This document shows positions 28,443 through 42,494 of a stretch of DNA of 64,000 nt, piece after piece. The stretch is from contig NZ_CP059735.1 of the NCBI RefSeq assembly GCF_000948975.2, positions 806,001-870,000 of the forward strand, read 5' to 3'. A model generated the notes under the pieces. That model searched no databases. It worked only from the letters and a program-made list of their open reading frames with translations, and was not told the origin of the DNA. Numbering within the stretch: the stretch's first letter is position 1; every line of letters starts with the position of its first letter. A program made the translations under genes and the position numbers. Origin of the DNA: Thalassomonas actiniarum. GTDB lineage: Bacteria > Pseudomonadota > Gammaproteobacteria > Enterobacterales > Alteromonadaceae.

Positions 28443-28474
28443 GCTTAGGACAAGCCCTGAGCACTTTTAAGTGA

Positions 28475-28520
28475 TATTTCCCTGTGATGCCTTGCCATAA
28501 GGGCACAGGGGAAATTATTT
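28475..28520 (+). terminator. Probable terminator after the PepSY gene
   Basis: An imperfect inverted repeat (atttccctgtg around 28476-28486 and cacaggggaaat at 28504-28515) is followed by TATTTT. It would end the DUF3325-DUF3649-PepSY transcript before the siderophore promoter. Confidence 0.55.
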
Positions 28521-28859
28521 TGCGCTGTAACCAGTCACTCACTTCCCGTTATTATCATGGTTTTACTGGCATTTTTTGCCATTACTTCACCTCAGTCGTT
28601 GTACAGCGCGGCCCCCTTATCAAGCTGTGGCGCGATACTAATACCTGCCTTTATGTCGATAGCGTTTTAGCTAAAAGCTGCACGCTAGTAATCATCATTG
28701 CCACTTTTTTGGCTCAAAAGTGGCTTTTCCCATCGGACAAGTTTGTTACCAAAGACCAGAAAATAATTAAAAGCAGGCTTTTATATCGCCGAAACCAGAC
28801 GGCTGTGATCATTTATTCAGCAGTTAAGGCTTGATTTATCAATTTATTTTAATTTGATG

Positions 28860-28882
28860 CAAATGAGACTTGATCTCATTTG
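28860..28882 (+). promoter_or_regulatory. Fur box upstream of sbnA
   Basis: Nine-base perfect arms, caaatgaga and tctcatttg, flank a five-base centre. This is the AAATGA...TCATTT arrangement of gammaproteobacterial Fur sites. It lies 58 bp before the sbnA start and should make the siderophore operon iron-repressed. Confidence 0.78.
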
Positions 28883-28940
28883 TATTCGTATTTAGTATTC
28901 ACCTACTATTTACATAAACAGCCAATTTGGACAGATTAGG

Positions 28941-29930
28941 ATGAACGACAATATTGTTTCCTGTGTTGGGAATACCCCAATAGTGAGTCTCTCGAGACTT
29001 TTTAACCACAGCAAAGTTGAAGTTTTGGCAAAGATGGAGTTAATGAATCCCGGTGGCAGCATTAAAGATCGCCCGGCGAAATATATGTTAGAGCAGGGGA
29101 TGAAATCTGGAAAAATCAATAAAAACAGTCATATCATCGAAAGCTCATCGGGTAATCTGGCGATAGCGCTGGCTATGCACTGCAAATTACACGGCCTGAG
29201 ATTCACCGCTGTTGTTGATCCCAAAATCTCTCCCACTAATTTAAAAATGATCAAACTGTATGGCGCCAATGTCGTTCAGGTTACAGAGAAAGATGAAAAC
29301 GACGGTTATTTACTGACCCGTATCAATACCGTTAAACACCTGGTTGAGACCACGCCAAATGCGGTTTGGGTTAACCAGTATGCCAACCCCCATAACTGGC
29401 AAAGCCATTTTTACGGCGAAGCAGAAGAAATAATTAATCAGGTTGAAGGCTCGATAGATTATCTGGTGATCGGCGCCAGTACTTCCGGCACCTTAATGGG
29501 GGTGTCCCGCCGCCTGAAACAAGCCTACCCGGATATGCAGGTTGTCGCCGTGGATATCAGCGGTTCTGTATTGTTCGGCGGTCCATCCGGCCCCAGGGAA
29601 ATTCCCGGTATCGGCGCAAGCCGGGTACCTGAGTTACTAGAGCCGAGTGAAGTTGACCAAGTGATTTATGTTGACGATTACGAGTCGGCATTAGCCTGTT
29701 ACAAGCTGCTTGAGCATGAAGGTATTTTTGCCGGAGGCTCAAGCGGTTCTTCCATTGCCGCCATTGAAAAGCTGCTGCCAAACATCGCCAAAGGCAGCCG
29801 GGTATTAACCCTGTTCCCGGATCGCGGCGACCGCTACCTTGACCTTATTTATGATGATAACTGGCTGGAAATGGTGCGCCAGCGTCACTTAAATTCATCA
29901 GCCAATACCAATAACAGAAAAATAGCTTAA
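28941..29930 (+). CDS. sbnA: Staphyloferrin B biosynthesis protein SbnA (ACEGA synthase)
   Basis: A 329-residue PLP enzyme of the cysteine-synthase fold. In Staphylococcus aureus SbnA condenses O-phospho-L-serine with L-glutamate to N-(1-amino-1-carboxyl-2-ethyl)-glutamate. The PLP lysine is K42 in 'MNPGGSIKDRPAKY'. The phosphate-binding 'ESSSGNLAIALAM', the strand 'VVDPKISPTNLKMIKLYGAN' and the end 'LFPDRGDRYLDLIYDDNWLE' are near-identical in pattern to SbnA and differ from ordinary CysK. It is the first gene of the siderophore operon, 58 bp after a Fur box. The sbnB start is 17 bp downstream. Confidence is high because neighbours on the same strand follow the exact sbn order. Confidence 0.93.
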   Translation: MNDNIVSCVGNTPIVSLSRLFNHSKVEVLAKMELMNPGGSIKDRPAKYMLEQGMKSGKINKNSHIIESSSGNLAIALAMHCKLHGLRFTAVVDPKISPTNLKMIKLYGANVVQVTEKDENDGYLLTRINTVKHLVETTPNAVWVNQYANPHNWQSHFYGEAEEIINQVEGSIDYLVIGASTSGTLMGVSRRLKQAYPDMQVVAVDISGSVLFGGPSGPREIPGIGASRVPELLEPSEVDQVIYVDDYESALACYKLLEHEGIFAGGSSGSSIAAIEKLLPNIAKGSRVLTLFPDRGDRYLDLIYDDNWLEMVRQRHLNSSANTNNRKIA

Positions 29931-29947
29931 CTTATCAGGAAAAATTT

Positions 29948-30961
29948 ATGACCACGAATACCCATTTACGTTACTTAAGCCAGTCGGACTTGCGCCAATT
30001 GGGAGCCGACCACAGTAATGCCTTTATTGAAGCGATAGAACAGGGCTTAAAACTCCATGCCGAAGGGGAGTTTGTCCAGCCGTTAAAGCCTTACCTGCGC
30101 TGGCAGGGAGCCGACCATATTGCCGACCGCATTATTGCCATGCCGTGTTATTTAGGGGGAGATAACCCTATGGCCGGGATCAAATGGATAGGTTCTCGTC
30201 AGCATAACCCCGGCAAGTTTGACTTACCCCGGGCGAGCGCCTTAATTATTCTTAACGACGCCGACACTAACTACCCGGTAGCAGTACTCGAAGGCAGCTT
30301 GATCAGTGCCATGCGCACCGCGGCAATTACCGGGGTGGCGACCGGCTATCTCGCCCGCGAAAACTTCACCGATGTCACTCTGCTCGGCTGCGGTCCCATC
30401 GGCCAGATGCAGGCGAAAACCTTGCTTGAACAGTATCCGCAAATAAAAACCGTGCATTTGTATGATCTTAATCCTGCTGCCGCTGACAAGCTGATCAGCA
30501 TGTTTGCCGGTGATTATCAGGAAATAGAATTTGTTATCCACCAGGAAGCGAAATCCGCCGTTGCCCAGGCAGATGTATTAGTCACCTGTACGGTTTCAGA
30601 TAAGCCTTATATCCCTTTCGACTGGATTAAAAAAGGCTGCTTTATTTCCAATATCTCCATTATGGATATCGAAAAAGACGTGTTCCTAAAAGCTGACAAG
30701 GTCATCGTAGATGACTGGGATCAGTCTAACCGTGAAAAGAAAGTGATCAACCAACTGGTGGAAGAAGGTTTATTCAGCCGTGAGCAACTGCATGCGGAAT
30801 TAGGAGAAATCATCCTCAAGCAGATACCGGGACGCGAAAACGAAGATGAGATTATTTTGCTTAATCCTATGGGCATGGCCATCGACGATATCGTTTGCGC
30901 CCGCTGGTTCTATCAGGCGGCTGAAAGCAAGAATATCGGCACCCGCTTACCTTTGTTTTAG
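29948..30961 (+). CDS. sbnB: 2,3-diaminopropionate biosynthesis protein SbnB
   Basis: A 337-residue NAD-dependent enzyme of the ornithine cyclodeaminase/mu-crystallin family. SbnB oxidatively hydrolyses the SbnA product to L-2,3-diaminopropionate plus 2-oxoglutarate, both building blocks of staphyloferrin B. Visible signs are 'IKWIGSRQHNPGKFDLPRAS', the core 'EGSLISAMRTAAITGVATGY', the dinucleotide motif 'VTLLGCGPIGQMQAKTLLE' and 'LLNPMGMAIDDIVCARWFY' at the end. The length is close to that of staphylococcal SbnB. A ribosome site (CAGGAAAAA) precedes ATG 29948. It is followed after 9 bp by the first siderophore synthetase gene. Confidence 0.93.
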   Translation: MTTNTHLRYLSQSDLRQLGADHSNAFIEAIEQGLKLHAEGEFVQPLKPYLRWQGADHIADRIIAMPCYLGGDNPMAGIKWIGSRQHNPGKFDLPRASALIILNDADTNYPVAVLEGSLISAMRTAAITGVATGYLARENFTDVTLLGCGPIGQMQAKTLLEQYPQIKTVHLYDLNPAAADKLISMFAGDYQEIEFVIHQEAKSAVAQADVLVTCTVSDKPYIPFDWIKKGCFISNISIMDIEKDVFLKADKVIVDDWDQSNREKKVINQLVEEGLFSREQLHAELGEIILKQIPGRENEDEIILLNPMGMAIDDIVCARWFYQAAESKNIGTRLPLF

Positions 30962-30970
30962 GAGATAAAG

Positions 30971-32731
30971 ATGTTACGGCAATTTCACCTTAACCAGCTA
31001 CAAAAACTGATGGATGCATTATACATGGAAGATTTCAGTGGATATTGCCGGCATCTGAGTTTTTCCCAAGCAAACCTGCTGGTTACACTCGATGAGCATA
31101 GCCAGTTGAGTTTCTCCTGTATCAAGCAGGCCGGGCTTAGTCCGTACCGCTTACAAAGCGATACCGTCTATTTTATCGATCAACGGGTGGGATCCCGGAC
31201 CAGGATCCCACCACAAGAGATCATGACATATTTCACCCGGGCCAGTTGGTGGCCCGGTGATACTCAGCAAATGGAAAAACAGCAAAGAGCAGACCTTTGG
31301 TGGCGCCAGTGTTTTAATTTTATCGAACAGCTGAGCGCACAAATTCCCGGCTGGCAAAAGCTATCGCTGGCGTCTTTGCCTTTAAGTGAATGTTATGCCA
31401 TTGCCGCCGACCGTCCCTTTCATCCTTTTGCCCATGCCAAGGAAGAGCTTGCCAGCCTGATTGGCTCCGAAAAGCTGTCTAGGGTAAAGGTTTATTGGTG
31501 GGGCTTTCGCCGCGACAATATCATTAGCCGCAACAAGCAGGCCACAGATAAAACGCCGGCGAGCTTTCTGCTTTCCCGGGAGCAAAAATTGGCACTTGAT
31601 AGCAAAATGGCGGAAAAAATCTCCCCGGCTGCGACAAATGCCGACTATATTGCGCTGCCGCTGTTAGCGACACAAGATTTGGCCTTAGGGTCACAGGCTG
31701 AAGATCTCGGGGCGGTTGATCTTGGCTTCACCACAGAGCTGGGGTTACCGACATCTTCCCTTCGCACCCTGATGAGCGATAACAATAACCTGCATGTGAA
31801 ACTGTCCACCTATGCCCGCACGCTCGGGGCAATGCGTTCTATGCCGCCAAGATACCTGGTAAATGGCGATCACGCTTTCCGGTTATTGCTCGATATCAGT
31901 GCCAAAGATCCGCTCTTAAGCCAAACCCTGGCCTTGAGTGATGAACAGCTGTGGTGGGTGGCGGGCAAACCGGAAGAGTTAATCACTAATCCGGGCCATT
32001 ATGCCTGCCAGCTGAGATTTTTACCCGAAGCGACAGCGGGCACTGAATACCTGGCCATGTCGGCATTAACTTACCAGGGGGAAAGTGTCTGGCAACTTGC
32101 CCTGGGGCAGGAGCTTGATGAATGGCAGGCGGTACGGGAACTGAGCCAGTTATTTATCCGGACATTTTTATCTTTATGGTGCCAGGGGGTTATGCCTGAA
32201 TGTCACGGCCAGAATGTGATCGCTTGCTACGAACAGGGCAGGCTGAGCGGTTTTATCCTCAGGGATCACGATACCCTGAGAATTTGTCCTGCGCGGTTGA
32301 AGCAGCAAGGATTGAATATTCCCGATTACCAGATCAACTGGTCGACACCAAACACCCTGGTTTTGGCAACGGATGCCGAGCTGCTGGCCTACTTTACCAC
32401 CTTGGGCTTGCAGGTGAATCTCTTTCCCATCGCCTTGGCGGTTATCGGCCGCAGCGAGCATACGGAAAGTGAATTCTGGCACTGGACCCGGCAGTGTATT
32501 TCAGACTTTATCAATCAATTAATCGATACCTCCCTGGCAGATACCCTGCGCCAGGAGTTGCTATACGCACAAAAGTGGCCTTTTAAACAAGTATTAACCC
32601 CGCTATTACAGCGACAGGAGTTATCCACCAGTATGCCCAGCAGCATGGGAGAAATAACCAATCCGCTGCCCGGCAACCAATCGCAATCATCAAATCAAGA
32701 AGTTTATGAAACAGTCAGCGTACCAGCTTAA
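30971..32731 (+). CDS. sbnC: NRPS-independent siderophore synthetase SbnC
   Basis: A 586-residue IucA/IucC-family synthetase. In staphyloferrin B assembly SbnC is the type B enzyme that joins 2-oxoglutarate to the last amine. The ATP-binding region contains 'AADRPFHPFAHAKEEL' (about 137-152), a looser version of the usual GHPxHPxxKxRxG motif that keeps the His-Pro and Lys. The segment 'LRTLMSDNNNLHVKLSTYAR' is strongly typical, and the FhuF-like C-terminal domain has 'FILRDHDTLRI'. GGAGATAA lies just before ATG 30971. The end overlaps the transporter gene by 26 bp. Position between sbnB and the MFS gene matches sbnC in Staphylococcus; the substrate assignment follows from that order. Confidence 0.88.
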   Translation: MLRQFHLNQLQKLMDALYMEDFSGYCRHLSFSQANLLVTLDEHSQLSFSCIKQAGLSPYRLQSDTVYFIDQRVGSRTRIPPQEIMTYFTRASWWPGDTQQMEKQQRADLWWRQCFNFIEQLSAQIPGWQKLSLASLPLSECYAIAADRPFHPFAHAKEELASLIGSEKLSRVKVYWWGFRRDNIISRNKQATDKTPASFLLSREQKLALDSKMAEKISPAATNADYIALPLLATQDLALGSQAEDLGAVDLGFTTELGLPTSSLRTLMSDNNNLHVKLSTYARTLGAMRSMPPRYLVNGDHAFRLLLDISAKDPLLSQTLALSDEQLWWVAGKPEELITNPGHYACQLRFLPEATAGTEYLAMSALTYQGESVWQLALGQELDEWQAVRELSQLFIRTFLSLWCQGVMPECHGQNVIACYEQGRLSGFILRDHDTLRICPARLKQQGLNIPDYQINWSTPNTLVLATDAELLAYFTTLGLQVNLFPIALAVIGRSEHTESEFWHWTRQCISDFINQLIDTSLADTLRQELLYAQKWPFKQVLTPLLQRQELSTSMPSSMGEITNPLPGNQSQSSNQEVYETVSVPA

Positions 32732-33926
32732 ACTGCTGCTTTTTTGCCAGTTTCTCGCCACCTTTGGCTTAATGGTGCTGATCCCCGTGATGCCCTTGTA
32801 TTTAACTAAACTTACGGCGTCCAATAGTTCGGCGACCCTGTGGGCGAGTTTTGCCTTAGCAGCCCCCGCGATAGGTAGTCTGCTTACCGCCCCGCTGATC
32901 GGTCGCCTGGCCGATAGCTGGGGCCATCGCCGGGTATTATTTTTATCCTTATCCGCCTTTGGCTGCTCATTGCTGATGATGTCCTATGCCTCCTCTATGA
33001 TGGTTTTTATTGCCGCCAGGGTGTTATTAGGTTTTTCCGGGATTTCGGTGGCCATCACGAGTTACACCATGCACACCGTCAGCGCATCCGCCCGAGGGCA
33101 GGCGCTGGGAAAACAACAAAGCGCCGTGGCAGCCGCCTGTCTCAGCGGCCCTCTGCTGGGTGGGATCTTTATGGATAAGTGGGGCATGGAATTGTTGCTG
33201 AATTTAACAGCAGCCCTGACCTGTATCACCCTCTTGGTTGCCGCTTTGTTGTTACGCCATGTGCCTGAGCATGCGGTGTCCGGGAGCCGCCAACCCTTGC
33301 CGTCAAAATGGTACCTGCGCCGCGATAACCTGGCCTGGTTGGGGGCAGGTATTTTGGCGCAAGCGGGGGCCTTTTCTCTGGTTACCTGTTTTGCCCTGTA
33401 TATCAGCGAACAGCAATCCCTGGCGTTGCCGGTAGCCACGACCACCGGCATGTTACATGCGTTGGCCTGGACCGGCACTTTTCTCGCCGGCGCCTACTGG
33501 GGCAAACGAAATGATCTGGGTAAGGCCGGTATTAACTTTATTCTGGCTTCGGCTGTCTGTGGCATTGCCATCGGGCTGCTGATCTGGGCTGATGTCCTGT
33601 GGCAGTTTGCATTGCTGAGGTTGTTACAAGGCTTGTGTTTTGCAGCCTTGATCCCGTCGGTCATGTACAGCCTTTGTCAGTCCTGCCCTGATCATCCGGG
33701 GCAGGTGACCGGCACCGCCAAAAGCGCATTGGTACTCGGCCAGCTGGCCGGTCCGTTGGCCGTTGCCGCCATCTATCCTTTTTGGGGGGCCAACGGCGCC
33801 TTATTAATGACTGCCGGTTTGTTTATCGGCGGCAGCTTGCTACTAATCATCAATAAATACTTAGCTCTAGCGCTTAAACCTCAAGCGTCCGGGTCAAAAA
33901 CACAGCTTTCAAAGGTAATTGAATAA
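32706..33926 (+). CDS. sbnD: MFS siderophore exporter SbnD-like
   Basis: A 406-residue major-facilitator membrane protein with twelve predicted helices, starting 'LLLFCQFLATFGLMVLIPVM'. The loop motif 'GRLADSWGHRRVL' between helices 2 and 3 is the MFS signature of drug/H+ antiporters. SbnD is the proposed staphyloferrin B exporter in S. aureus, and this gene occupies the same place between sbnC and sbnE. It overlaps sbnC by 26 bp, and its stop shares one base with the next start. Export of the siderophore precursor across the inner membrane is inferred. An outer-membrane partner is not encoded here. Confidence 0.85.
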   Translation: MKQSAYQLKLLLFCQFLATFGLMVLIPVMPLYLTKLTASNSSATLWASFALAAPAIGSLLTAPLIGRLADSWGHRRVLFLSLSAFGCSLLMMSYASSMMVFIAARVLLGFSGISVAITSYTMHTVSASARGQALGKQQSAVAAACLSGPLLGGIFMDKWGMELLLNLTAALTCITLLVAALLLRHVPEHAVSGSRQPLPSKWYLRRDNLAWLGAGILAQAGAFSLVTCFALYISEQQSLALPVATTTGMLHALAWTGTFLAGAYWGKRNDLGKAGINFILASAVCGIAIGLLIWADVLWQFALLRLLQGLCFAALIPSVMYSLCQSCPDHPGQVTGTAKSALVLGQLAGPLAVAAIYPFWGANGALLMTAGLFIGGSLLLIINKYLALALKPQASGSKTQLSKVIE

Positions 33927-36900
33927 TGAGCACAAACTCCACCAGCCGCTGGCACAATAAATTAACCGAGCAGTATCTCAATACGTTTTTTCGGGAAACC
34001 CAGGTTGATATTAACCAGTGCATCAAGCAGGCTTCCACCCTGACAGAAGATCAGCACAGTCCCTTATCCGCCTCCCTGTTGACCACAAACCAGGGGGTAA
34101 GCATGTTTTGTTACCGCTTTAGTGCGTCTGACACTTATTTATGGGGGGGAGTCAAGCACTTATCCCTGACCGGTTATCATGAATATGCGGAAAATTTTTA
34201 CCTGGTAAAAACAGGCAATGAAGTCTGTGAATTAACCGATCTGCGAGATTTATTACAATTGATCAGCGCTCAGTTAACGGCTGACGCCGGTAATGGCAAG
34301 CAGGAGATAAATGCCGGCGCCCTGTTAAATGAAAACATGAACAACAGCGTCAACAAGTCGGAATTCTTTTTACTTAACCGGAAACAGCAGCAGTGCAAAA
34401 ATGCTGTGGTGGAAGATTTCATCGCCGCCGAGCAAGGCATGGTATTGGGGCACCCTTTTCATGTAACTTCTAAAGCCAGCATAGGGTTTAGTCAGGATGA
34501 TATGAAGCGTTACAGCCCTGAGCTGGGGGTTTCTTTTAAATTGCATTATTTTGCGGTGTGTCCCGGGCGACTCAGAGCCAGTGATATCGGGGAAGACTTA
34601 ACGGCCCTGAGCGATAAAGAAGCTCAGCAGCAGGCGCAGCAGCTGTTAACCGCTGATCATAAACATTATACCTTATTACCTTGCCATCCATGGCAGGCTA
34701 ATTATTTGCTGGACAATCAGCAAGTACAGCAAGCCCTGGCAGATGAGAGCATGATATCTCTGGGGCCACTGGGACAAGTGGTGTGGCCTACTTCTTCGGT
34801 ACGCACCGTATGGCTGCCTGAAAACAAAATTTTCCTTAAACTGGCGTTGGATGTCAGGCTGACGAATTTTGTCCGCAATAATCCCGATGAGCAGGTGATG
34901 CGCGCCATAGATGCCAGCCGTTTGATCCGCAAGATCCCGGCAGAGCTTAGCGACAATCGTTTATTATTGTTGCCTGAGCTGGCCTCACAAACCCTGCATT
35001 TTGAACAAGCCCCCGAATTGTCCGCTTCGTTCGCCAGTATTTATCGTGCCGGCCTTGATGAAACGTCCCTGGGACAAACCCGGATCCTCGGCAGCCTGGT
35101 GGAAGAAAACCTCGATGGCGAAGATCTGCCCCTGTGGCAATATATCAAACAAGCCGCCGAGCTTGCCGACACACCCCTAAGCAGTGATTTTATCGAACAC
35201 TGGTGGCAGGCCTATATCCAGGCTTCATTGCTGCCGGCTTTAAGCCTGTATGCCAATACCGGTATCAGTTTGGAGGCCCATCTGCAAAACAGCCTGATGA
35301 GGTTTGAGCAGGGAATGCCGGTACAGCTGGTGGTGCGGGATATGGAAGGAGTCAGTATTTCCCGAAATTCCGTGCTGGCGGATGCCTGTCCGCAAGTCAG
35401 CGCAAACAGTTCGGTCTGGTATACGCCGGAGCAAACCTGGTTCAGGTTTAAGTATTACATGGTGGTTAATCATATTGCCCATGTGATTGCCGCCATTGCC
35501 AGGGTGTCACTGGTAAGCGAAAGCCGCTTATGGCTCGTTACCCGTCAATGTCTGGCAGCAGAGGAAATGACCCCGGCAACCCGGATTTGGGCACAGCGCC
35601 TGTTGGAGGCCAAAGATTTACCCGCCAAGGCCAATATGCTCAGTTCTTTTAAACAATCGGGTGAGGCCCCTACCTGGGTTGATATTGCCAACCCTTTATA
35701 TTTTTTGCCACAAGGACAAGACATGACGTTAATCACTACTTCGGATCACAACCAAAATAATGCCGCCTTTGCCGCTGCCCATCAGCAGGCTGAGTTGAGG
35801 GTAAACCAACAGCTGTTCGAAGCCTTGATTTTTGAAGGTGTGGCAGTGGTAAGCAGGCATGAAAACAATGAAATAACACTTAAGGTTTCTGAGGTCTTAA
35901 CATACCGCTGTCAGGGGATAACCAGCGACAGCTTTGAACGCATTCGCCTGGTGCCGGGCTCCCTGATGCGCGAAGAACAAATCACGGGACAAAACCGGAT
36001 CAGCCGTCCATCACTGCAGCAATTAATGACGGACCTGGCACCCCTGGTTAAAGCGGAGCCGCAGAAATGGCAACAATTTCATGATGAGCTGACCTTAACT
36101 AGGGTTAAACACGCCCAAACCCTGCACCAGTTACCGGCAAAACCGCTCAGGGACATGAGTTATGAGTTCCAGGAAGCCAGGGTCAATAACGGTCATTTGT
36201 ACCATCCCAGCTTTAAATCCAGGATCGGTTTTGATCTTGCTGAAAACCAGCTATACGGTCCCGAGTTATCCCAGGGTTACCATGTTATCTGGTTGGCGGT
36301 GCACCAGGATTATGTCCATGCCTGTGTCGGCAACAGCACTTCGTTAGAGCAAATTTATGGCCAACACTTTACCCCGCAAGAGTTACAGGCCATAAACAGC
36401 CAGGTGGAAGATGCAGGTGCAGATCTTGAAAACATGCGCTTATTACCGGTACACCCCTGGCAGTGGCATAAGATCATCAGCCTGTATTATCAGGATCTGC
36501 TGACCTCAGGCATGATCATTAAATTAGCGGTATCCGGCCCTAAGTACCTGCCGCAACAATCCATCCGCACCCTGTCAAATATGGATGATGTTAAACAGGC
36601 ATCGATTAAACTGGCGATGAACCTGGTTAATACCTCAACCTCAAGGGTGCTGGCGCCCCATACGGTGCAAAATGCCGCCGCCATCAGCGATTGGTTATGG
36701 CAATTGGTTGATGAGGATCCCTTGTTATCCCCGGCTCATAAACCGGTTATATTGCGGGAAATCGCAGCTATCGGGGTGACCGTCCCGTCGGCCTTGCCGG
36801 TACAATACGGGGCTCTGGCCTGTATCTGGCGCGAGAGTGTTCACCCCTATCTGGAGCAAGGTCAACAGGCTTCTCCTATGACTATGCTGATGCAGCTCGA

Positions 36901-37552
36901 TAATGACCAGAAGCCGGTGATAGATGCCTGGATCCGCCAGCACGGCGTAAAAACCTGGCTTACCGCCCTGGTGACCCATGCCTATCTGCCGGTGATGCAT
37001 ATGCTCTGGTACCATGGCACGGCGCTGGAATCCCATGCCCAGAATATGTTGCTGATCCATGAATCCGGGTTGCCGGTGAAGGTGGCGCTGAAAGACTTTC
37101 ATGACGGGGTAAGGTATAGCAGAGCTTTATTAAGGGATGTTACCCGGTTACCCGAGTTAACGGATGCCCCGGATGTACATGCCAAGGTCAATCCAAATTC
37201 TTTCCTTGAAACCGATAATGCCGATGAACTGCGTGACTTCACCCAGGATGCTTTATGTTTTGTTAATCTCGGCGAACTGGCCTGGTTCTTACAAGTTCAT
37301 TATCAACTGCCGGAGCAGGAATTTTGGTCGGTAACGGCCAAAGTGATGCATGAATACCAGGCAGCACACCCCCAGCTGACCGGGCGTTTTAAATTATTCG
37401 ATTTCTTTGCCGCTAATATCGAAGTTGAACAATTGGCCAGCCGCCGTTTCCTGCCGGAAGTGAGATTACGGGTAATGTCGGTGGAAAACCCTTTGGCAAA
37501 AGCGGATCAGACAATTACGCAATCTACTCAAGCAGTAGCACAAGCGGTGTAA
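33926..37552 (+). CDS. SbnE-SbnF fusion: two siderophore synthetases in one protein
   Basis: A 1208-residue protein made of two complete IucA/IucC synthetases. The N-terminal half (about 1-597) has 'LGHPFHVTSKASIGF' near 174-188 and the C-domain motif 'QLVVRDMEGVSISRN'. The second half (about 600-1208) has 'NGHLYHPSFKSRIGF' near 754-768 and 'VALKDFHDGVRYSRALL'. By order these correspond to SbnE (type A, citrate plus first diaminopropionate) and SbnF (type C, second diaminopropionate), which are separate genes in Staphylococcus. At the junction an internal ATG (35723, residue 600) is preceded by AAGGA eight bases upstream, like the relic start of a once separate sbnF. No frameshift is seen. 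One-base overlap with sbnD; sbnG starts one base after the stop. Confidence 0.9.
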   Translation: MSTNSTSRWHNKLTEQYLNTFFRETQVDINQCIKQASTLTEDQHSPLSASLLTTNQGVSMFCYRFSASDTYLWGGVKHLSLTGYHEYAENFYLVKTGNEVCELTDLRDLLQLISAQLTADAGNGKQEINAGALLNENMNNSVNKSEFFLLNRKQQQCKNAVVEDFIAAEQGMVLGHPFHVTSKASIGFSQDDMKRYSPELGVSFKLHYFAVCPGRLRASDIGEDLTALSDKEAQQQAQQLLTADHKHYTLLPCHPWQANYLLDNQQVQQALADESMISLGPLGQVVWPTSSVRTVWLPENKIFLKLALDVRLTNFVRNNPDEQVMRAIDASRLIRKIPAELSDNRLLLLPELASQTLHFEQAPELSASFASIYRAGLDETSLGQTRILGSLVEENLDGEDLPLWQYIKQAAELADTPLSSDFIEHWWQAYIQASLLPALSLYANTGISLEAHLQNSLMRFEQGMPVQLVVRDMEGVSISRNSVLADACPQVSANSSVWYTPEQTWFRFKYYMVVNHIAHVIAAIARVSLVSESRLWLVTRQCLAAEEMTPATRIWAQRLLEAKDLPAKANMLSSFKQSGEAPTWVDIANPLYFLPQGQDMTLITTSDHNQNNAAFAAAHQQAELRVNQQLFEALIFEGVAVVSRHENNEITLKVSEVLTYRCQGITSDSFERIRLVPGSLMREEQITGQNRISRPSLQQLMTDLAPLVKAEPQKWQQFHDELTLTRVKHAQTLHQLPAKPLRDMSYEFQEARVNNGHLYHPSFKSRIGFDLAENQLYGPELSQGYHVIWLAVHQDYVHACVGNSTSLEQIYGQHFTPQELQAINSQVEDAGADLENMRLLPVHPWQWHKIISLYYQDLLTSGMIIKLAVSGPKYLPQQSIRTLSNMDDVKQASIKLAMNLVNTSTSRVLAPHTVQNAAAISDWLWQLVDEDPLLSPAHKPVILREIAAIGVTVPSALPVQYGALACIWRESVHPYLEQGQQASPMTMLMQLDNDQKPVIDAWIRQHGVKTWLTALVTHAYLPVMHMLWYHGTALESHAQNMLLIHESGLPVKVALKDFHDGVRYSRALLRDVTRLPELTDAPDVHAKVNPNSFLETDNADELRDFTQDALCFVNLGELAWFLQVHYQLPEQEFWSVTAKVMHEYQAAHPQLTGRFKLFDFFAANIEVEQLASRRFLPEVRLRVMSVENPLAKADQTITQSTQAVAQAV

Positions 37553-37553
37553 C

Positions 37554-38315
37554 ATGAAGCCATCAACACTGAAAAAACGTATCGCTAATAACACAGAAGT
37601 CTTTGGTTTATTTTGCTCTATCCCCTCTGCGGTAGCCTTAGAGCAAATTGCCGCAGCCGGTTATGATTTTGCCATTATCGATTTAGAGCATACCCTGATC
37701 GGCAAGGAACAGTTGGAAGTACTGATATTAGCGGCCCGCGCCAGCGCCCTGGAGCTGTTGGTCAGGGTACCGCCGGGGGCTTTACATCTGGTGGTGCAGC
37801 TATTGGATGCCGGTGTCGCCGGTATTGTTTTTGCGCGTATCGATGATGCCATGCAGGCACAACAAGCAGTTGCCGCTTGCCATTATGCCCCCCTGGGTAC
37901 CCGGGGACTGAACTCCACCCGGGACAGCCGTTATGGTCTCGACGGCCTGGTGGACTATATTGAGCAGGCAAAACAAAACACCTTAGTGGTGGTGATGATA
38001 GAAAGCCGCCAGGGGCTGGCAAATATTGACGCCATCGCGGCGACCCCGGGAGTCGATGTCATTTTGGAAGGGGCTGCGGATTTATCACAATCTTTTGAGC
38101 TGCCCTGGCAAACCCGCCATGACTCGGTTAGCGAAGCAATCGCCCATATCCACCGGCAAACCCGGATTGCCGGGAAAGTCTTTTGTGCTTTACCCAGGGA
38201 GCCCGAGGAAATTAAGGCCTGGCGTGAGGAGTCGGTGTCGGTTTTTGTCGTTGGCGATGACCGCGGCATTATGCGCCGGGCACATCAAAGCCATTTGGCG
38301 GCCTATAAAGAATAA
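37554..38315 (+). CDS. sbnG: SbnG-type citrate synthase (HpcH/HpaI fold)
   Basis: A 253-residue protein of the HpcH/HpaI aldolase fold. SbnG of S. aureus makes citrate from oxaloacetate and acetyl-CoA, supplying the siderophore backbone independently of the TCA cycle. Candidate active-site residues are visible: His46 in 'IDLEHTLIG', Arg71 in 'LLVRVPPGA', the metal ligands Glu150 ('VVMIESRQG') and Asp176 ('EGAADLSQS'). It starts one base after the synthetase fusion gene and is therefore co-transcribed. Ordinary 2-keto-3-deoxy-sugar aldolases share the fold, so the specific activity rests on the gene cluster. Confidence 0.88.
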   Translation: MKPSTLKKRIANNTEVFGLFCSIPSAVALEQIAAAGYDFAIIDLEHTLIGKEQLEVLILAARASALELLVRVPPGALHLVVQLLDAGVAGIVFARIDDAMQAQQAVAACHYAPLGTRGLNSTRDSRYGLDGLVDYIEQAKQNTLVVVMIESRQGLANIDAIAATPGVDVILEGAADLSQSFELPWQTRHDSVSEAIAHIHRQTRIAGKVFCALPREPEEIKAWREESVSVFVVGDDRGIMRRAHQSHLAAYKE

Positions 38316-38332
38316 GCAAGATAAAGATGAGT

Positions 38333-38367
38333 ATGCCCGGCCCAGTTAACTATGCTGCGCCGGGCAT
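38333..38367 (+). other. Hairpin between sbnG and sbnH
   Basis: A perfect 9-bp stem (atgcccggc / gccgggcat) with a 17-base loop lies in the 93-bp gap, the only sizeable gap inside the operon. The sequence after it is A-rich, not a T-run, so it is more likely an mRNA stability or processing element than a terminator. Confidence 0.4.
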
Positions 38368-38408
38368 GTAAAAATATTTAATAATTTAACCGCATACAAG
38401 GAATAACT

Positions 38409-39638
38409 ATGTCGGTAGCATTTTCCCTACACCCTTTACAAGAATACATAACGCAGCAAACCGATCCCGTTTGTGCCTATTATTATGATCTGGATTATTT
38501 AAGCCAGCGTATCCAATGGATCAGTGAAAACTTACCCGATAAGGTGAATTTTTATTATGCGATCAAGGCCAACTCGGATCAGCCGGTACTTGAAACCTTG
38601 TCCCCATATATCCATGGGTTTGAGGTAGCCTCCCTGGGAGAGATCCATAAAGCCCGGCAGGCAGATAGCCATCGGCCGATCGCTTTTGGCGGGCCGGGAA
38701 AAACCCGGGTAGAACTCCAGGGAGCCCTGGATGCCGGTGTTGAGCTGTACCATATCGAAAGTGTGTTACAGCTGGACCGGTTAAATGAACTGGCAGCCAA
38801 GGCCGGGCAAAAAGTCAAAGTACTGCTGCGGGTGAATCCCAGGTTTGAATTGCCCGATGCGACCTTGCAAATGGCGGGAAAAGCGACTCAGTTCGGTATA
38901 GACCAGGCACAAATCCCCGAAGTATTAGCTTCTTTAGCCAGCTATCCCCAGTTGGAATGTGTCGGTTTTCATTTTCATGCCATTTCCAATAATCTTGATG
39001 CCGACAGTCACTTATTATTGGTAAAAACCTATATCGAAGTCGCCAGGGGCTGGCAGCAAAGCCATGGCCTTAACATGGAATTGTTAAATATCGGCGGCGG
39101 TATCGGCATCAATTACCAGGATAGCGATCAGCAATTTGCCTGGCAGCACTATTGCCAGGAACTCAATAAGCTGATCCAGGAAGCGGATATTGCTTTTTCT
39201 CTGGCTATGGAGTGCGGCCGTTTTGTTAGTGCCACCTGCGGCTGTTATGTGGCGGAAGTCACGGACATTAAATCGAACCATGATCAGTATTTTGCGGTCT
39301 TGCGCGGCGGCAATCATCAGTTCCGTTTGCCTTCGTCCTGGCAACATAACCATCCTTTTCAGGTGATTAGTGTCGATCACTGGCCCTGGTCCTACCCGCG
39401 TCCGGGCATTTTAGGAGAGAAGATCACCTTATGTGGCGAGTTATGTACGCCAAAAGACGTATTAGCCAGCCGGGTTGAGATAGAGCAGCTTAATGTCGGC
39501 GATCTGATCTTGTTTGAACAAACAGGGGCTTATGGCTGGCATATTTCTCACCATAACTTTTTAAGCCATGCGCACCCGGATCGTATTTATCACTCAAACT
39601 CACAGTTATTATTTATTAAGGAAGATGCATCATGTTAG
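38409..39638 (+). CDS. sbnH: SbnH-type PLP-dependent decarboxylase
   Basis: A 409-residue fold III PLP decarboxylase related to diaminopimelate and ornithine decarboxylases. SbnH removes CO2 from the citryl-diaminopropionate intermediate, giving a citryl-diaminoethane unit. The PLP lysine is K53 in 'VNFYYAIKANSDQP'. 'GFHFHAISNN', 'LNIGGGIGINY' and 'LAMECGRFVSATCG' are family landmarks, and 'GDLILFEQTGAYGWHISHHNF' supplies the C-terminal substrate loop (quoted here: 'FEQTGAYGWHISHHNF'). ATG 38409 is preceded by AAGGAATA. The end overlaps sbnI by 7 nt. It acts between the E-type and F-type steps that are fused in the upstream gene. Confidence 0.9.
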   Translation: MSVAFSLHPLQEYITQQTDPVCAYYYDLDYLSQRIQWISENLPDKVNFYYAIKANSDQPVLETLSPYIHGFEVASLGEIHKARQADSHRPIAFGGPGKTRVELQGALDAGVELYHIESVLQLDRLNELAAKAGQKVKVLLRVNPRFELPDATLQMAGKATQFGIDQAQIPEVLASLASYPQLECVGFHFHAISNNLDADSHLLLVKTYIEVARGWQQSHGLNMELLNIGGGIGINYQDSDQQFAWQHYCQELNKLIQEADIAFSLAMECGRFVSATCGCYVAEVTDIKSNHDQYFAVLRGGNHQFRLPSSWQHNHPFQVISVDHWPWSYPRPGILGEKITLCGELCTPKDVLASRVEIEQLNVGDLILFEQTGAYGWHISHHNFLSHAHPDRIYHSNSQLLFIKEDASC

Positions 39639-40054
39639 GCGCCAAATCGATTGTTTTTGTTGAAACCGGAAAAATCTTACCCAATGAGCAAGTATATTCA
39701 GAGCGGGTTAACTGGCTGGTGGATAAAATTCAGTCGGAAGGGTTATGGCGGGTGCCGGTTACCCTGGACAAGTCAAGTTATGCCGTGATGGACGGACATC
39801 ACCGGCTGGAAGCCGCCAGGCGATTAAAGCTCCCCTGTGTGCCTTGTCTTTTGCTTGATTACTCGGAGGTAAGCTTTGTCAGCACCCATGAATCTTTGGC
39901 TATCACTCCGAAAATGGTCGGTGAATATGCTAAGGCCGGCACCTTGTTCCCGCCGAAAAGTACCCGACATATATTCAGCAATCCTTTGCCGACTTGTAAC
40001 ATTTCTTTGACTATAATCAAAAACACAAATGATAATGGTTTGCATTTGAGTTAA
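39632..40054 (+). CDS. sbnI: Short SbnI-like ParB/Srx-fold protein, putative free-serine kinase
   Basis: A 140-residue protein with the ParB/sulfiredoxin-like fold. Staphylococcal SbnI phosphorylates free L-serine to the O-phosphoserine used by SbnA, and its haem-responsive region regulates the locus. Visible here are the N-terminal strand 'VFVETGKILPNEQV' and the nucleotide-binding motif 'AVMDGHHRLEAARRL' (about 49-63), then 'FPPKSTRHIF' near 110-119. The protein is little more than half the length of S. aureus SbnI: the central part is missing, so haem regulation is probably absent. AAGGAAG precedes ATG 39632. The last 15 codons run through the promoter and Fur box of the receptor gene. Confidence 0.75.
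   Translation: MLGAKSIVFVETGKILPNEQVYSERVNWLVDKIQSEGLWRVPVTLDKSSYAVMDGHHRLEAARRLKLPCVPCLLLDYSEVSFVSTHESLAITPKMVGEYAKAGTLFPPKSTRHIFSNPLPTCNISLTIIKNTNDNGLHLS
40007..40047 (+). promoter_or_regulatory. Promoter and Fur box of the TonB receptor gene
   Basis: TTGACT (40007-40012) and GATAAT (40031-40036), 18 bases apart, form a good sigma-70 promoter. The -10 element lies inside a Fur-like site, aaatgataatggtttgcattt (40027-40047; the run is 21 bases, quoted in halves as aaatgataat and ggtttgcattt). The whole element lies inside the end of the sbnI coding sequence. TATAAT at 40012-40017 is an alternative -10. Confidence 0.65.
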
Positions 40055-40095
40055 ATGCCTCTATAATAAGTTACTCTCTTAATAAAAGTAACTTG

Positions 40096-42240
40096 ATGAT
40101 TAATCATAGTATTATGAATATAAATAAATCTTATATCGCTGTTCTTGTTTCGTCTTTTTTATCTGTTTCCACATTTAATGCCGTCGCTGAGGACATTGAA
40201 CGTGTTGAAATTTTTGCCGAACGCATGTCGTCGGACCTTGAGTCCATCTCACGCCAGGTGACGGTAATAGATAACGAGGTATTAACTACTGAGTTTGCCA
40301 GTGCGCAGAATTTAGCCGAGGTTTTGGCTAAGGTAGTGCCGGGCATGGCGCCTCCTACCCCGGCATTGACGAATTTTGGAACAACGATACGTGGACGTAA
40401 TGCCCTGGTGTTGATTGATGGCGTGCCGTTAAACACCAATCGTAATATTTCCAGGGATCTGCATAATATCCACCCAAGCCAGGTGGCCCGGGTGGAAGTC
40501 TTCCGCGGTGGTAATGCGATTTACGGCAGCGGTGCAACCGGCGGAGTTATTTATATTCATACCAAATCTGGCGAGGGTGAAAATAAACTTGTCAGTTCTA
40601 TTTCCACGCAAATAAGCCTGACGGAGCGCACAAGCGACTCCATGACCTCTCAGATTTATCAGGAAGTAAGCGGTTCATATCAGCAGTGGAGTTATTTACT
40701 GGCGGGTTCTTTTGAAAAAACTGCCGGAGCCTACGATGCCGATGGCGATCGCATTGCCCCCGAGCCAAGCCAGGGGGATAGCATAGACAGCGACATTTTC
40801 AGCATCAACGGCAAAATTAAATACCAGTGGCAAGATCAGTCATTGGAATTTTCTGCATTGAGTTACCAGTTGGAACAAGATACGGATTATGCTTCAGATC
40901 CTTCGGCAAAAGAATTACCTTACCTGTCCAAGGCCCAGTCAATAAAGGGGTTGGAACTTGATAAGCAAAATGAGATCAGCAACCAGGTATTCGACCTGAG
41001 CTATAAAAACCGTATCAATGATGACCACAGGTTAACGGCCCAACTTTATTACCGGGACTATGAATCACGTTTCTCCCCGTTTGATGGCCGCCCGTACGGC
41101 ACCTGGAACCACCTGGCACAAACCTACCTTGAAAGCACTAACTTAGGGCTGCGCTTAACGGTGAACTCATCCCTGAGCGAGCAGTTAGACCTTGACTGGG
41201 GACTGGATAGCAGCGAAGAAAAAAGCGAGATGCCGGTAACCACCTATGACGGTGATATTTACGATGAAAGCAATGGCCTGGTATTTCAGGAGCTTGGCGA
41301 CAAAGCCTTTGTGCCTGAACTGACCCATAGCAGCCGGGCCGCCTTTGCCCAGGCCAGATACCAGCTAAATGACGCCATCAGCCTGGAAGCTGGCCTTCGT
41401 TATGAAGAAATAGAAGCCAGCTTCGATGACTTTACCACCTTAGGGCAGGCGGTTGATATTCAGGGCAGCGATTATGATTACGACTCTTTCGTGTCTAACT
41501 TTGCCGCCACCTACCAGGTAAATGATGATCATACGGTTTATCTGGCTGCTAACGAAGGATACGAACTGCCGGATATCGGTTTAAGGATCCGTTATGCCAA
41601 TGAACAGTTCGACTTGAGTCAGTCCAAGCTTAAGCCGGTGGAAACCCAGGATTACGAATTCGGCTGGCGCGGGAACTTCGAGCAGGTTGCTATGAGTCTT
41701 GCCCTGTTTCACTCTTCGTCTGATTTAGGCAATGTGAAAAGTGAGAATATGGGGCTGAGTTTAAGCCGCAACAAGGTTGAAATCAAAGGCATAGAGGTTA
41801 CCCTGGATTTAGACATTAATGATTACCTGGCGCTGGACTTAAGCTACAGCTATGCCGAAGGCAAAGAAAAAGCCGAAGGGGCGGATGAATACATTAAAAT
41901 GAATGGTTTTGCCATTCCGCCGAATAAACTCTCCGCCGCCTTGGTTTATGATAATTTACAGGGCTGGACCAGCCAGCTGAGATTGTTGGCGGTAAGCGGC
42001 GAAGACTACCGTATCGACGGTAATAATGCTTTTGGCCGCCGGGACGTGGAAAGCTACCGCGTAGTGGATTGGTCAAACCAGGTAGAATTGCCTAAGGGAA
42101 CTTTGACTGTTGGCATTGAAAACCTGTTCAACAAGCAATATTACTCGGTTTACAGCCAGTTACAGCGTAACGGTAATAACACCAGCTCTATCCCGGGGCG
42201 CGGCCGGTTACTTTCCGTGAATTACCAGCTTACCTGGTAA
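40096..42240 (+). CDS. TonB-dependent ferric-siderophore receptor
   Basis: A 714-residue outer-membrane receptor. Signal peptide ends near 'FNAVA'. The plug domain (about 45-160) contains 'VLIDGVPLNTNR', 'VARVEVFRGGNAIYGSGATG' and 'GVIYIHTKSG'. The rest is a 22-strand-type barrel ending 'LSVNYQLTW'. It sits directly after the sbn biosynthesis genes with its own Fur-box promoter, so ferric staphyloferrin B or a close analogue is the likely cargo, as for AleB in Cupriavidus metallidurans. Ligand identity is inferred. ATG 40096 is preferred; TTG 40093 and ATG 40114 are alternatives, all giving a usable signal peptide. Staphylococcus instead uses the SirABC lipoprotein transporter. Confidence 0.9.
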   Translation: MINHSIMNINKSYIAVLVSSFLSVSTFNAVAEDIERVEIFAERMSSDLESISRQVTVIDNEVLTTEFASAQNLAEVLAKVVPGMAPPTPALTNFGTTIRGRNALVLIDGVPLNTNRNISRDLHNIHPSQVARVEVFRGGNAIYGSGATGGVIYIHTKSGEGENKLVSSISTQISLTERTSDSMTSQIYQEVSGSYQQWSYLLAGSFEKTAGAYDADGDRIAPEPSQGDSIDSDIFSINGKIKYQWQDQSLEFSALSYQLEQDTDYASDPSAKELPYLSKAQSIKGLELDKQNEISNQVFDLSYKNRINDDHRLTAQLYYRDYESRFSPFDGRPYGTWNHLAQTYLESTNLGLRLTVNSSLSEQLDLDWGLDSSEEKSEMPVTTYDGDIYDESNGLVFQELGDKAFVPELTHSSRAAFAQARYQLNDAISLEAGLRYEEIEASFDDFTTLGQAVDIQGSDYDYDSFVSNFAATYQVNDDHTVYLAANEGYELPDIGLRIRYANEQFDLSQSKLKPVETQDYEFGWRGNFEQVAMSLALFHSSSDLGNVKSENMGLSLSRNKVEIKGIEVTLDLDINDYLALDLSYSYAEGKEKAEGADEYIKMNGFAIPPNKLSAALVYDNLQGWTSQLRLLAVSGEDYRIDGNNAFGRRDVESYRVVDWSNQVELPKGTLTVGIENLFNKQYYSVYSQLQRNGNNTSSIPGRGRLLSVNYQLTW

Positions 42241-42276
42241 AGCGTTTACAAGACCCGGGTCATGGCCGGAAATAAC

Positions 42277-42310
42277 AAAAGCAGCAAGCCTGATGGTTTG
42301 CTGCTTTTTT
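42277..42310 (+). terminator. Rho-independent terminator of the receptor gene
   Basis: Eleven-base perfect arms (aaaagcagcaa / ttgctgctttt) with a ten-base loop and a following T-run lie 37 bp after the receptor stop codon. It closes the siderophore locus. Confidence 0.88.
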
Positions 42311-42494
42311 CATTTTTGGCACTGGCTTAAGGTATTGATGAATATGAACTAAGCTTATATTAACCTTAGTCATTGTGAATTTTGGTAATTTAACTGGGCT
42401 TGTTGTGGTTGATCCTTATAGGGAGCTTGCTGTTTTATTGTTGTTAAGGTTATCAATGGAATAATTTTTATCTTATTGCTTAGCTGAAACACCA

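Follow-up and report, generated by a model that had tools for sequence, protein, structure and literature searches.

Does Thalassomonas actiniarum make SbnE and SbnF, two synthetases of the staphyloferrin B pathway, as a single protein, and, if so, how did the gene arise and does it still yield a free SbnF? We analysed a stretch of 64,000 nucleotides (the window; contig NZ_CP059735.1, positions 806,001 to 870,000). An earlier note, made from the sequence alone, had read in it a fusion of sbnE and sbnF into one synthetase of 1208 residues, with a relic internal start at the junction.

The sbn cluster of the window

The genes are arranged in the order sbnA-B-C-D-(EF)-G-H-I, followed by a TonB receptor, and the fused gene is the fifth (Table 1). 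SbnA and SbnB pass curated cut-offs; the names of C, D, G, H and I rest on gene order and weaker matches. The gene set of the staphyloferrin B pathway (sbnA, B, C, D, E, F, G and H) is present, with C, D, G and H recognised by similarity or synteny rather than by equivalog cut-offs, and the order A-B-C-D-E-F-G-H is identical in 10 clusters in which sbnE and sbnF are split. An sbnI-like frame was found in 16 of the 23 mapped loci, in ORFs of 147-288 aa if the most upstream possible start is taken; the match spans ~100-135 of the 140 residues of the window protein. A search for a Fur box across the window, using a 19-base consensus, gave a best match of 14/19, no better than in 20 mononucleotide shuffles (best 13-15).

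Table 1. Position of the sbn genes and of the parts of the fused gene in the window, with the basis of each assignment.
Feature	Position	Strand	Basis
sbnA	28941..29930	+	TIGR03945 above cut-off
sbnB	29948..30961	+	TIGR03944 above cut-off
sbnC-like, third NIS synthetase	30971..32731	+	NF033583 251 bits, below strict cut-off of 700; same place in sister clusters
sbnD-like MFS exporter	32706..33926	+	similarity and synteny; stop overlaps start of fused gene by 1 base
Fused sbnE-sbnF gene	33926..37552	+	single ORF, ATG start, 1208 aa; two IucA_IucC/FhuF pairs; fused orthologues
SbnE-like half (residues 1-591)	33926..35698	+	NIS synthetase resembling type A (AcsD, IucA)
Junction (residues 592-618)	35699..35779	+	native E tail and F leader, no added domain; alignment of 8 fused proteins and comparison with separate E and F ends
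AAGGA and in-frame ATG	35712-35716 (AAGGA), 35723-35725 (ATG)	+	possible relic or active internal start
SbnF-like half (~residues 619-1208)	35780..37552	+	NIS synthetase resembling type C (AsbB, IucC, DesD); NF033586 on 620-1191
sbnG-like, HpcH/HpaI aldolase family	37554..38315	+	HpcH_HpaI match; synteny
sbnH-like PLP decarboxylase	38409..39638	+	decarboxylase families; synteny
Short sbnI-like ParB/SerK-domain protein (140 aa)	39632..40054	+	NF053625 52.6 bits and ParB_N 20.1 bits, both below cut-off; similar frames here in other clusters
TonB-dependent siderophore receptor	40093..42240	+	TIGR01783 above cut-off

Both halves of the fused protein are complete synthetases

The ORF listing and a reading of the DNA agree on a frame of 1208 codons without an internal stop. 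Pfam places two IucA_IucC and two FhuF-like domains on the protein, which makes each half a NIS synthetase of the IucA/IucC family. The NCBIfam model for SbnF (NF033586, a model of the 'exception' type) scores 562 bits on the whole protein, in two matched stretches, against a cut-off of 900; its best stretch is residues 620-1191, and SbnF is still the top NCBIfam match of the C-terminal half.

The solved structures nearest to the N-terminal half are AcsD (2w02) and IucA (5jm7), which we take to be type A synthetases. Those nearest to the C-terminal half are AsbB (3to3, E=4e-111), IucC and DesD; we take the last two to be type C, and DesD is called 'Type C' in one PDB title. By resemblance to these proteins, the N-terminal half would have type A activity and the C-terminal half type C activity. 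Identity to separate SbnE proteins is 40-43% for the N-terminal half (10 of the 15 loci of the named-genome scan), and identity to separate SbnF proteins is 44-47% for the C-terminal half (Collimonas, Nitrosospira, Nitrosomonas, Methylobacter and others). The tree of N-terminal halves puts the window protein among the genes in the E position, whose name SbnE rests on position and literature, and gene order agrees.

The conserved residues of the ATP/carboxylate site are kept in both halves: H176, H179, K183, S291, R293, K305, R317, H452, Q454, N455 and D472 in the N-terminal half, and H757, H760, K764, S879, R881, K895, R907, H1037, Q1039, N1040 and D1057 in the C-terminal half. The roles of these residues, that of the counterpart of AcsD R305 apart, are presumed by us. 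Over the aligned positions, the N-terminal half is identical to separate SbnE at 21/22 (Collimonas), 21/22 (Methylobacter) and 22/22 (Paenibacillus), and the C-terminal half to separate SbnF at 21/22, 20/22 and 21/22 respectively; the mismatches are the position after GH and, in the Methylobacter SbnF, the G of GH. Counting positions in the alignment with AcsD matches its R305 and H444 to R317 and H452 of the window; AcsD R305 is described as important in the available text of PMC3323832. One frame, two domain pairs and the catalytic residues thus confirm the fusion that the earlier note had proposed: SbnE and SbnF are two complete NIS-synthetase halves of a single protein. In the SbnC-like enzyme, as aligned, the GHP..H...K region and HPWQ differ from the other synthetases, and the SxRT, K, R, HxQN and D positions are kept.

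Fused and split relatives

The named-genome scan yielded 15 loci. The halves share one frame in two (Aliiroseovarius and Zobellella) and form a pair of neighbouring genes, with the cluster order unchanged, in 10 (Collimonas x2, Nitrosospira x2, Nitrosovibrio x2, Nitrosomonas, Methylobacter, Nitrotoga and a MAG); the three Paenibacillus loci have an E-like gene apart and two F-like genes. In the gammaproteobacterial MAG (L029, 4921-9797), two ORFs share the sbnC match and the end of the sbnE frame is out of register, probably through assembly errors. The Aliiroseovarius cluster (L015, 5353-16234) contains the fused gene, sbnA-, sbnB- (weak, 25%), sbnH- and sbnI-like genes and an extra SbnF-like gene; no match to sbnC, sbnD or sbnG was found in it, and it possibly makes a different siderophore.

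Both halves were found in one frame in the window genome only, among 59 genomes (E up to 0.001). With E up to 1e-60, they were found in one frame in the window genome and G319 among 398 genomes of the phylum, in the window genome and G695 among 394 of the order and among 147 of the family, and in the window genome only among 369 of the class; these sets and that of the genus of G319 overlap in part. In the latter, which is probably Methylobacterium judging from the available text of PMC9301485, 30 of 99 genomes were matched (E up to 1e-60), 12 with both halves in one frame and all the others with the C-terminal half only. Some of the C-half matches of this genus (L058-L064) lie in frames of 1050-1061 aa, which by length may be fusions of the MllBC type described in PMC11317620. 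Matches were present in 1831 plasmid records, all below 60% identity, and a single place covered at least 80% of the query in 22. By their labels, the 40 matched rows that were listed show two IucA/IucC genes in 12 cases, a single gene beneath a ~1.7 kb span (one synthetase) in 19, no listed gene in eight and no annotation in one; the unlabelled rows could include fusions.

A single-base slip in sequencing or assembly could join two genes arranged as in Collimonas, and the earlier note had named such an error as a danger to its claim. The probability of this is negligible. The genome is assembled in two contigs, and orthologues ~49-60% identical to the window protein are fused in Zobellella, Aliiroseovarius and G695, the last being of the same family as the window genome. 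With independent fused relatives at hand, an assembly error was rejected as the source of the fusion. Relatives with only separate genes would also have spoken against the note; instead, the fused state runs through a whole clade and recurs in a second lineage.

Number and age of the fusions

Trees were computed for the N halves with SbnE (23 rows), the C halves with SbnF (25 rows) and both joined (21 rows); the tree program flags long branches and uneven composition. The proteins of the window, Zobellella, Aliiroseovarius and G695 group as a single clade, supported at 100/100 by the joined tree, at 100/100 by that of the C halves and at 92/84 by that of the N halves. Beside it sits a clade of split beta- and gammaproteobacterial genes (100/100 joined). 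The state 'fused' changes twice on all three trees, and a single clade of all eight fused proteins is disfavoured (p-AU 0.027), which points either to two fusions or to one fusion followed by re-splitting. The latter is possible; no split relative was found inside the four-member clade among the genomes searched. Because fusion marks the whole clade and a second lineage too, loss of the stop would most simply be old, rather than recent in the window genome.

The junction and the internal ATG

As the earlier note had it, the junction holds an ATG (35723) with AAGGA upstream; the spacer is 6 bases. A Shine-Dalgarno match of 5 bases precedes three of the 257 in-frame internal ATGs of the 30 mechanical window ORFs of at least 250 aa, ATG 35723 included, and no other ATG inside the fused gene has one. 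The signal is uncommon, not unique. A hand comparison of the printed junctions shows that ATG 35723 coincides, within ~1 codon, with the start of free SbnF proteins.

None of the seven other fused genes examined has an ATG at this column (CTC in Zobellella, CTG in Aliiroseovarius, CAA in G695), and none has a Shine-Dalgarno match of at least 4 bases before an in-frame ATG, GTG or TTG within ~25 codons; in the fused gene of L075, an ATG without such a match stands one codon earlier. The distance between E stop and F start in the split loci is +3 in Collimonas (x2), +4 in Methylobacter, Nitrotoga and one Nitrosospira, -4 in the other Nitrosospira and Nitrosomonas, and -20 in Nitrosovibrio (x2). 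In two of nine readable split loci, both of Collimonas, F continues the frame of E and only one stop, two codons ahead of the F ATG, parts them (the tenth, the MAG, has an E frame ending elsewhere and was left out of this count). The origin by loss of an upstream stop that the earlier note suggested thus has a model in Collimonas, but in 2/9 split loci only.

Counted from the shared NPL motif, the Collimonas F start is codon 8, where Zobellella (CTC) and Aliiroseovarius (CTG) have Leu, and the Met of ATG 35723 is codon 9 in the window. Since these positions nearly coincide, we favour ATG 35723 as the former start of a free SbnF. The opposite reading, with Leu ancestral in the fused clade and ATG 35723 new, is possible. 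The view that this ATG is a relic therefore agrees with its place near the SbnF start of split loci, but the signal is absent from 7/7 other fused genes examined.

The same observations bear on whether translation of the gene gives a free SbnF, begun at ATG 35723, besides the full protein. We consider this unlikely: the position of the site and the rarity of 5-base matches speak for it, and the lack of any such ATG or signal in the other fused genes speaks against it. On a related and likewise doubtful reading, the gene might stand between split and fused, having kept the old SbnF start signal and giving a two-headed synthetase plus extra free SbnF; if so, the ratio of SbnE to SbnF activity would be set by one internal ribosome site. 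A recent fusion private to the window genome, independent of the sister lineages, is improbable. It would fit with the window being the only one of eight fused genes examined to keep an ATG and SD-like site at the junction, but the window protein is nested with three fused ones in a clade supported at 100/100, and a single event is simpler.

Probable exchange of the locus within the genus

The fused protein had no match in three genomes of the same genus (G001-G003), in which the flanking genes are present (sensor kinase, 83-94%; a gene that looks PepSY-type, 63-64%). Between these conserved flanks, the window has the sbn cluster (28443-42494) where the three genomes (L095, L096, L097 and L098) have an acyl-NRPS cluster. 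Beside the kinase, G003 has a fatty acyl-AMP ligase with a carrier domain, an NRPS and a TauD-type dioxygenase; on the left side it has two ORFs of ~1250-1290 aa, a cyclic-peptide exporter and a TonB siderophore-type receptor (below the model cut-off). On the right side, G001 and G002 have ORFs of similar size and start in the same order as G003. The reading covered both ends of the interval in G003 and the right side in G001 and G002. The ligase of G003 is 86-91% identical to those of G001 and G002, and its nearest match in the window genome is only 35% identical. The simplest reading is that siderophore-type clusters, sbn and acyl-NRPS, were exchanged at this site; the product of the NRPS is probably a siderophore. 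The variable interval of G003 also holds a protein of the retron St85-type effector family (L096, 6780-7790; NF038232, 251 bits against a cut-off of 100).

Discussion

The fused gene very probably encodes a working bifunctional synthetase of a staphyloferrin-B-type pathway that arose by loss of a stop in an ancestor and arrived in a mobile cluster. The N-terminal half would join 2,3-diaminopropionate to citrate by an amide bond, SbnH would act on the product in trans, as a free decarboxylating enzyme, and the C-terminal half would add a second diaminopropionate; this follows the roles given in the available text of PMC3179956, where only the SbnH step comes between those of SbnE and SbnF. The stop between adjacent sbnE and sbnF genes of the same frame would have been lost in the ancestor of the Zobellella, Aliiroseovarius, G695 and window group, and the fused gene would have entered the window genome within the mobile cluster. 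As a single polypeptide, it should supply both activities at 1:1, unless the internal start is used. Some observations weigh against this account: the NCBIfam scores of SbnC and SbnF are below the strict cut-offs, E and F share a frame in so few of the split loci, and the fusion also occurs in Aliiroseovarius with its extra SbnF-like gene and without sbnC, D or G matches. Given the composition of that cluster, the fusion alone does not fix the product, which in the window is predicted to be staphyloferrin B.

The earlier note had also proposed that the fusion serves to hand the intermediate from the SbnE half through SbnH to the SbnF half in one complex. The succession of steps fits this speculation, which we nevertheless consider very improbable: the junction looks like two native tails joined, and no SbnH docking element was noticed in reading the sequence. 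An AlphaFold2 model of residues 1-1196, made with three fused rows, reached a pLDDT of 44.6 and a pTM of 0.29, too low for a structural reading.

The sbnE-sbnF fusion is already in print for Methylobacterium aquaticum 22A. The available text of PMC9301485 describes a fused SbnE-SbnF, named SbnF, that is likewise one protein inside an sbn cluster; deletion of its gene gave CAS-negative cells, and the siderophore structure was still to be determined. That fusion belongs to a distant lineage, apart from the window (the disfavoured single clade of eight), and its cluster is described there without sbnI, whereas I-like frames of 71-80 bits were found here in four genomes of the genus of G319. Staphylococcus aureus has the same two synthetases and sbn pathway genes as the window (available text of PMC3179956; NF033586), but as separate SbnE and SbnF genes; it is likened to the window through the family model and that paper. 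In Collimonas, Nitrosospira, Nitrosomonas, Methylobacter and others the gene order is that of the window, but sbnE and sbnF are two genes, adjoining or overlapping. For Cupriavidus metallidurans, three separate staphyloferrin B biosynthesis genes are given in the available text of PMC2864759. MllBC and MllDE (asb-type, methylolanthanin synthesis) are likewise fusions of neighbouring siderophore-pathway genes, but MllBC joins a NIS synthetase to an adenylation domain, in place of the second NIS synthetase of the window (available text of PMC11317620). Of the papers cited here, PMC9301485 alone reports an sbnE-sbnF fusion, and no paper on one in the group of the window was found in a search of largely non-subscription literature.

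The fusion of the window is a modest variation on a known pathway, common to several relatives. It means that SbnE and SbnF are joined in two distant lineages, and that a single step could lead there from split clusters in which an in-frame stop closely precedes the next start. The split genes, the fused gene with an internal start signal and the fused genes without one form a natural set for asking whether joined NIS synthetases change flux.
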